From positions 1 to 48,345 of the forward strand of contig CACNYU010000006.1 in NCBI GenBank assembly GCA_902624785.1: a DNA stretch of 48,345 bases, written 5' to 3'. Source of the DNA: an uncultured Prochlorococcus sp. (GTDB lineage Bacteria > Cyanobacteriota > Cyanobacteriia > PCC-6307 > Cyanobiaceae). The notes under the pieces are model-generated. The model did not search any database, had not been told where the DNA came from, and saw only the letters and a list, made by a program, of their open reading frames with translations. Position numbers and translations under genes: made by a program. Within the stretch, counting starts at the first letter, position 1, and each line of letters opens with the position of its first letter. Shown here piece by piece: positions 32,584-33,861 of the stretch.

Positions 32584-33861
32584 ATGAAACGCTTAATACT
32601 CCCACTAATAGCTGCACTCGCTTTACCTACTGCTGTTACTGCTACAATGCAGATTTTCTTAAAAACGTTAACAGGCAAAACTATAACCCTTGATGTGGAA
32701 CCTAACGATACAATTCAAAATATCAAGGCAAAAATTCAAGATAAAGAAGGAATACCTCCAGATCAACAAAGCTTGACCTTTGCTGGTAAACAACTTGAGG
32801 ATGGGAGAACTTTAAGCGACTACAACATCCAAAAAGAATCCACCTTACATTTGGTTTTAAGTTCCACCACTCTTAGAACAGAATGGGTACAACCATATGC
32901 CGCAATGCAGAATGTCGGTTTGGGATCAATTAAAAATAATAGAGATTTGGTTTTAGCTAAAGCAGGAGAATGCAATAACTATGGCTGGGTGATTGGAGAT
33001 ACTGATTATTGTGTCTATACTAATGCGAACAATACAACTGCTTCTGTTAATGGCAATAGCAGTTATGGAGGATATGATTATGCAAAATTTAATACTTCAA
33101 TAAATGTAGAGAAAACTATTAATGATAGATGGAAAGCTGGTGTTGCATATGGTGTTGGTTCTTCTAATTTAGATAATTACAATTTTTCTAGTATAGTAGC
33201 TAGCTTGAGTTCCACTAACACTCACTATTCTATTTATGGAGTTAAGAAAGTAAGTGATAAATTCACCTTAAAAGGAATGATTGGCGGATCTGATTTTGAT
33301 TACAAAGCTAATAGGAATTACTCAACTACATCAGCAACATCTGTCTACGATACTGATGGATATACAGCAGAGATAAATGGTATCTGGGATATAAAAAAGA
33401 ATATTAAAAATATGAAAACTCCAATCCGTTTACAGCCATTAGTAGGAGTTGCTTATGCCGCCCATACTCAAGATGGATTTAGTGAATCAGGTAGTGGAGA
33501 TTTAGTTACCATTGATCCAAACAAGGTAAAATCTCTTCTCTTTAAAACAGGAATTAGTGTAGATAAGCAAATCTCAATGGAAGGAGGAAAGTGGATTTTA
33601 GTTCCTTCACTTGCCCTAAATTATGAAATGGATACTTTTGTCGATGATAATCATAGAGGTCTTAAAGGAGGGTTAACTGGGAATTCTGATGCAACTACTT
33701 TGGTATCTGCAAAAACATTTGGTCAACACAATGTCTTTATAAAAGTAGGTGCTAATGTTTTCTGTACTAAATATCTTATATTTAATTTAAATGCAAAATA
33801 TGGCTTAGCAGATGGAAAAGATGAGCAGTCTTACGGTGGTGGTTTTAGATGGACGTTTTAA
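32584..33861 (+). CDS. Secreted ubiquitin domain fused to an outer-membrane barrel
   Basis: 425 residues. [20 protein letters not shown] is a signal peptide. Residues 22-92 align with eukaryotic ubiquitin residues 1-71 at about 90% identity; by eye the changes are V5L, E16D, S20N, E24Q, V26I, R42S and I44T. All seven lysines are kept. The C-terminal RLRGG is absent, and the chain continues SSTTLRTEW. The rest (about 150-425) is Gly/aromatic strand-rich and ends RWTF, as in autotransporter-type barrels. It cannot be conjugated through a Gly-Gly tail, and R42, I44 and R72 (recognition surface) are lost, so a fold-only or decoy role is inferred. Its start abuts the previous gene's stop. Confidence 0.9.

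Follow-up and report, generated by a model that had tools for sequence, protein, structure and literature searches.

We analysed a 48,345-nucleotide stretch of DNA from an uncultured Prochlorococcus sp. (GenBank assembly GCA_902624785.1, contig CACNYU010000006.1, the whole of which we call the window), in which one gene encodes a bacterial signal peptide, a ubiquitin domain and a C-terminal beta-barrel in a single chain (Table 1). The source genome is 1.12 Mb in 63 contigs and is 56% complete. The Pfam ubiquitin profile PF00240 matched the window protein with an E-value of 1.3e-28 (99 bits against a curated cut-off of 25.4), placing the first domain within ubiquitin as a reading of the sequence without database searches (the sequence-only reading) had it, and the autotransporter beta-domain profile PF03797 matched with an E-value of 2.6e-26 (93.3 bits) over profile positions 2-252 of 255. 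With E-values this low, a chance match can be excluded for both parts. Judged by the -3/-1 rule, cleavage of the signal peptide is most likely after A20, which would leave T21 before ubiquitin Met1. Two further window genes, at 35271 and 38991, encode signal peptides 65-75% identical to that of the ubiquitin gene.

Table 1 Features of the ubiquitin-barrel gene and its upstream neighbour (window coordinates)
Feature	Position	Strand	Basis or remark
Ubiquitin-barrel gene	32584-33861	+	intact open reading frame, ATG start, 425 codons, 425 residues
Sec signal peptide, residues 1-20	32584..32643	+	read from sequence
Ubiquitin domain, residues 22-92 (ubiquitin 1-71), ending before R72-L73-R74-G75-G76	32647..32859	+	PF00240, AlphaFold
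Ten-residue linker, residues 93-102, boundary of passenger/translocator recombination	32860..32889	+	identity steps; other passengers join the barrel here
Predicted pore helix of the autotransporter translocator, residues 103-126	32890..32961	+	helix 4-27 of the model
Predicted beta-barrel translocator, residues 134-425, final residue Phe	32983..33858	+	PF03797 and model matches
142-residue protein with N-terminal membrane segment	32155..32583	+	no Pfam match

The ubiquitin segment aligns with human ubiquitin without gaps, and 64/71 residues (90%) are identical. The seven changes are V5L, E16D, S20N, E24Q, V26I, R42S and I44T, the number that the sequence-only reading had counted by eye, R42 and I44 among them. 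Its description of the C-terminus and the lysines was likewise seen in the alignment: R72 is replaced by Ser, G75-G76 are absent (the chain continues L71-SSTTLRTEW) and all seven lysines (K6, K11, K27, K29, K33, K48 and K63) are kept. Because the C-terminal Gly-Gly is missing, its sequence excludes conjugation of the window ubiquitin and hence a role as a protein tag.

A sequence profile gave no useful match to solved structures. AlphaFold2 with a 10-sequence alignment produced a confident ubiquitin part (predicted local distance difference test, pLDDT, ~80-93, with matching order of strands and helices) and an unfolded barrel. With 26 aligned barrels the window translocator was modelled at pLDDT 83.5 and a predicted template modelling score of 0.79, as a helix spanning residues 103-126 followed by a barrel that reaches the last residues, in agreement with the PF03797 match and with the earlier suggestion of a C-terminal barrel ending in Phe behind a bacterial signal peptide. 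The top solved-structure match of the model was NalP (Z 31.6, root-mean-square deviation 1.9 A over 272 residues), followed by EstA (Z 29.9), AIDA-I (Z 28.4) and EspP (Z ~28). All of the best solved matches are autotransporter translocators, with other barrels falling to Z ~15-21, and the modelled helix occupies the barrel pore as in secreted autotransporters. These matches place the ubiquitin in the position of a type Va passenger, some ten residues away from the pore helix. The earlier idea of an exported ubiquitin fold reused without conjugation thus stands, and its barrel can be sharpened to a type Va autotransporter translocator. From sequence and model we are highly confident that the window protein is a type Va (monomeric) autotransporter with a single ubiquitin lacking Gly-Gly in the passenger position.

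If the known type V pathway applies, Sec would export the protein and the beta-barrel assembly machinery would insert the barrel in the outer membrane, after which the ubiquitin would pass through the barrel and refold outside, at the mouth of the barrel, some ten residues above the pore helix. By analogy with such proteins the ubiquitin is probably exposed on the cell surface. It is also conceivable that folding precedes translocation, so that the ubiquitin remains in the periplasm and there forms a stable cap or plug for the barrel or a chaperone-like domain. Ubiquitin is generally known for fast folding and a stable fold, and the linker to the pore helix has only ten residues, both of which fit this topology. 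However, sister proteins carry long passengers at the same position and the helix fills the pore like that of secreted autotransporters, and we therefore consider a periplasmic ubiquitin quite unlikely. The pore helix also contains N118-N119 (32935-32940), of which N118 is found in 23/24 family members and N119 in 21/24. The structural aligner sets model residue 1 at EspP residue 1005, and if the two helices match without gaps N118 equals EspP N1023, the pre-cleavage residue according to structure entry titles. As a lead that rests on this assumed gapless match, N118 could be a self-cleavage Asn, which would allow the ubiquitin to be shed.

The close relatives by sequence all come from Prochlorococcus, nearly all of them from single-cell genomes. 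The barrel is present in 21/266 genomes of the genus and the ubiquitin passenger in 6/266, five of these being genomes other than that of the window (G326, G336, G376, G399, which is AG-347-E23, and G459). Although open-access literature searches agree with the sequence-only reading that no protein with this order has been described, the order recurs in public genomes. The five other copies have diverged sequences and the same in-frame linker junction as the window, and this disposes of the concern that the ubiquitin/barrel junction is an artefact. Single-cell genomes, like those of the closest relatives, can carry chimeras, but given the same junction in six diverged genomes, the match in guanine plus cytosine (G+C) content (0.35 for the ubiquitin and 0.34 for the barrel) and the bacterial signal peptide, it is hardly credible that the gene is a chimera of the assembly or a eukaryotic contaminant. 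No match to PF00179 (ubiquitin-conjugating enzyme, E2) or PF00443 (deubiquitinase) was found in the six genomes; control genomes gave none either.

Across the 24 full-length family members compared, the barrels are 58-87% identical to that of the window, and G596 gave an additional distant barrel match (29% identical). The non-ubiquitin N-terminal passengers on the same barrel are long and differ from one another, and G517 has three tandem barrel genes with three different heads. Between the window and G326 identity is 48% in the signal peptide, 86-89% in the ubiquitin and mostly ~80-88% in the barrel, with synonymous divergence (dS) of 0.36 in the ubiquitin and 0.82 in the barrel. Between the window and G399 identity is 47% in the signal peptide, 78-79% in the ubiquitin and ~91% in most of the barrel; the dS of the two barrels is 0.39 and that of the ubiquitins is saturated. 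G399 and G459 have ubiquitins of 93-97% identity (dS 0.095) on barrels with a dS of 0.66. These steps of identity and dS at the borders of the ubiquitin mean that it is transferred in one piece from one signal peptide and barrel to another and, at the level of sequence, show recombination of the ubiquitin segment independent of both. Phage records gave no DNA match to the ubiquitin-barrel gene and plasmids gave two matches only, each weak or partial.

The Prochlorococcus ubiquitins fall into two types, A (the window, G326, G336 and G376; Thr44) and B (G399 and G459; Ile44). Third codon positions of the two types agree at ~51-56%, no more than with unrelated bacteria, and their amino acids at 75-90%. 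The ratio of nonsynonymous to synonymous divergence within types is ~0.25-0.4, a rough figure from the few changes of the closest pairs; had it held, A and B, saturated as they are at silent sites, would be expected to differ in amino acids by far more than is observed. Our interpretation is that near-consensus ubiquitins were taken up on two separate occasions, or that a long-resident domain came under changing constraint; types A and B may also have a single origin. A ubiquitin tree of 71 columns, too short to trace the origin, put type A in one clade (98/94) with type B apart. The sequence-only reading had favoured a recent transfer from a eukaryote. A recent single transfer is not supported, given the saturated silent sites between types, the matching G+C, the six carriers and recombination within the genus. 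On general grounds the domain is likely to be eukaryotic in origin, by an older or an indirect route, and, because exported ubiquitins are sparse across many phyla (see below), a bacterial source is as probable as direct acquisition from a eukaryote.

The seven lysines vary among the Prochlorococcus relatives, where K48T, K63E and K29N occur, and R42, I44 or H68 is altered in 6/6 copies. In these six copies the sites of the face used by readers and by the activating enzyme (E1) are variable at 6/9, versus 9/41 of the other surface sites (Fisher p 0.015), the two groups having been drawn from general knowledge of ubiquitin with omission of sites known to vary in eukaryotes. As eukaryotic readers use I44, R42 and H68, the extra change on this face fits a loss of eukaryotic partners. 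It weighs mildly against mimicry, in which the displayed ubiquitin would act as a decoy engaging ubiquitin-binding proteins or proteases of protist grazers. The identity of the window copy to eukaryotic ubiquitin and its complete lysines fit such a decoy, as does the finding that recombinant BfUbb, the ubiquitin of Bacteroides fragilis, could bind human E1 in vitro (PMC3352274). However, the window copy has neither Gly-Gly nor R72 and there is no evident route into the eukaryotic cytosol, and together with the altered face this makes eukaryote-directed mimicry improbable.

Exported ubiquitins were also found in other bacteria. Genome contigs were scanned with a conserved peptide as seed, and similarity to the window protein set the ranking, which gives a biased set. 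In this set 76 ubiquitins from many phyla lie behind a hydrophobic leader, 72/76 having a signal-peptidase-like site immediately in front of Met1, and a free Gly-Gly terminates just two of the exported ubiquitins. Samples with less bias contained ubiquitin in 10/289 genomes from the phylum to which L016 (Akkermansiaceae) belongs and in 4/300 genomes from the order of L012 (Methylophilaceae; 1 of the 4 below the family cut-off), nearly always behind a leader. Outside the cyanobacteria, at least five families have fusions of ubiquitin to PF03797, and independent fusions were seen in Methylophilaceae, Comamonadaceae, Akkermansiaceae, Pseudomonas and Sneathiella. Seven such proteins (L011, L012, L014, L016, L027, L059 and L078) likewise consist of signal peptide, ubiquitin and PF03797 barrel, but their barrels are 13-21% identical to that of the window and they mostly retain R72 or R72-L-R. 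As these barrels are so distant and the window barrel family bears many other heads, the fusion most likely arose on several occasions.

The anchors vary: that of L016 is a barrel matching the translocator of the EstP esterase, those of L056 and L069 are IPTL-CTERM tails, and in rumen Clostridia ubiquitin sits on long secreted chains. Pedobacter cryoconitis has four tandem genes (L062, 8070-9397), each encoding a signal peptide and one ubiquitin that ends near residue 72. Among contigs of a viral collection, six carry other exported or plain ubiquitins; L082-L085 of this collection code for a signal peptide followed by ubiquitin, and in three of these proteins the C-terminal tail is similar to a sorting signal (MSEWAMIVLALGMAGGAAAVIQRRR). 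Actinomycetota contigs (L045, L063, L073 and L075, some titled, doubtfully, Bifidobacterium breve) encode ubiquitin with a GVVTYQ...PPxL...NFTG segment, in some copies in tandem and in most without a visible leader. The ubiquitins of L088 and L093-L095 (G047 and G343, two other genomes of the family to which the window genome belongs) look contaminating or eukaryote-type, with Gly-Gly, no leader and broken frames. Over L011-L087 and L132-L149, exported ubiquitins are sparse yet phylum-wide, immediately follow a signal peptide, have very different anchors and nearly always lack a free Gly-Gly. We tentatively propose a broad, largely undescribed bacterial class of exported ubiquitin heads that lack Gly-Gly, come straight after the signal peptide and sit on interchangeable anchors such as autotransporter barrels, IPTL-CTERM-type tails and long secreted proteins, of which BfUbb would be one free member and the Prochlorococcus head a recombining autotransporter passenger aimed at neighbouring cells.

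The swapping of passengers could instead be surface variation, in which heads are exchanged mainly because exposed barrels are recognised by phages or grazers, and ubiquitin is one of many compact heads masking or altering the surface with no specific ligand. One constant barrel with many unrelated passengers, swapped within the genus in a window rich in strain-specific genes, is what such variation would give. However, the ubiquitin is held at 75-93% identity despite silent-site saturation between types, and its recurrence in many phyla on other anchors suggests a property of ubiquitin itself. Surface variation thus seems to us rather unlikely, less so than a periplasmic ubiquitin or a decoy.

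None of the genes flanking the window gene is found again next to the other copies. There is no gap between the stop codon of the upstream gene for the 142-residue protein and the ATG at which the ubiquitin gene starts, and co-transcription is possible. A functional tie is improbable, since the upstream gene is not kept beside the ubiquitin gene in other genomes. Downstream, an AGAGG-loop of 9-CCTCT hairpin followed by a T run (33926-33951) is a likely terminator; the terminator scan gave no site there, the loop exceeding its allowed length. The product of the next gene (33953-34648), which is likewise not kept beside other copies, contains an HEAIH zinc-protease-like motif and is predicted to be of lipoprotein or secretion type. 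Many pilin-like proteins carrying a GFSLIELIIVIAVLSIL leader are encoded at 21614-22168, 25038-25595, 25747-26265, 26315-27388, 39924-40439 and 47409-48245, and a tRNA-Pro gene lies at 47228-47307. The region resembles a variable genomic island; in G152, G459 and G336, too, the barrel copies are within ~10 kb of a tRNA-Pro.

What could a ubiquitin that cannot be conjugated do at the cell surface? We suggest that it would serve as a compact, stable and swappable binding head, either held on the surface or shed by cleavage of the pore helix. By analogy with BfUbb it may act on neighbouring cells, most likely other bacteria, in antagonism or contact, a function that we put forward tentatively. 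A bacteria-directed head is favoured because of the BfUbb precedent: BfUbb is secreted, lacks Gly-Gly and inhibits other B. fragilis strains, bovine ubiquitin being inactive (PMC5705921). Several points weigh against this proposal. For BfUbb, which is small and free, the reported sensitivity factor is a peptidyl-prolyl isomerase (Jiang et al. 2024, as cited in PMC12396204), and a head tethered to the surface would have to be shed to reach a target within another cell. Comparison of neighbourhoods gave no immunity or partner gene common to the loci. Moreover, so fast and stable a folder might already be folded in the periplasm and then be unable to pass the barrel. On balance we rank a bacteria-directed head, itself short of an even chance, above surface variation, periplasmic retention and a eukaryotic decoy, in that order. 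The favoured reading as a whole, a type Va autotransporter with a ubiquitin surface head acting on neighbouring cells, seems to us slightly more probable than its alternatives combined.

Ubiquitin, the protein tag used by animals, plants and fungi, is taught as a eukaryotic hallmark, and the sole bacterial copy studied, to our knowledge, is a gut bacterium's toxin. If a member of one of the most abundant groups of ocean phototrophs displays ubiquitin on a swappable surface anchor, and if sparse exported copies are spread over many phyla, an extracellular bacterial role of ubiquitin would be general and testable. This raises the question of which ligand selects for a ubiquitin fold kept so closely where conjugation is impossible, and the natural passenger swaps are ready-made controls.

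BfUbb is the only characterised relative that we know of. As described in publications, with which we compared the window protein, it is exported, with a signal peptide before ubiquitin Met1 and no functional C-terminal Gly-Gly (PMC3352274, PMC5705921). The window protein shows this pattern of an exported ubiquitin that starts at Met1 and lacks Gly-Gly, with one extra Thr likely before Met1. In contrast, BfUbb is a free, small 76-residue protein 63% identical to human ubiquitin, whereas the window ubiquitin, closer to the human protein, ends at 71 and is joined to a barrel; antibacterial activity is known for BfUbb only. The secreted ubiquitin effectors of plant-parasitic nematodes, as cited in PMC5705921, are eukaryotic gland proteins with a 12-residue tail; they share the signal peptide before ubiquitin and the altered C-terminus but have no membrane anchor. 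With the type Va autotransporters NalP, EstA, AIDA-I and EspP the window protein shares the signal peptide, N-terminal passenger, pore helix and C-terminal barrel ending in Phe. It differs in that the passenger is a 71-residue ubiquitin rather than a beta-helix or an enzyme, in its 12-16% identity to solved translocators and, compared with classical type Va autotransporters, in that the passenger of its family is swapped between strains.
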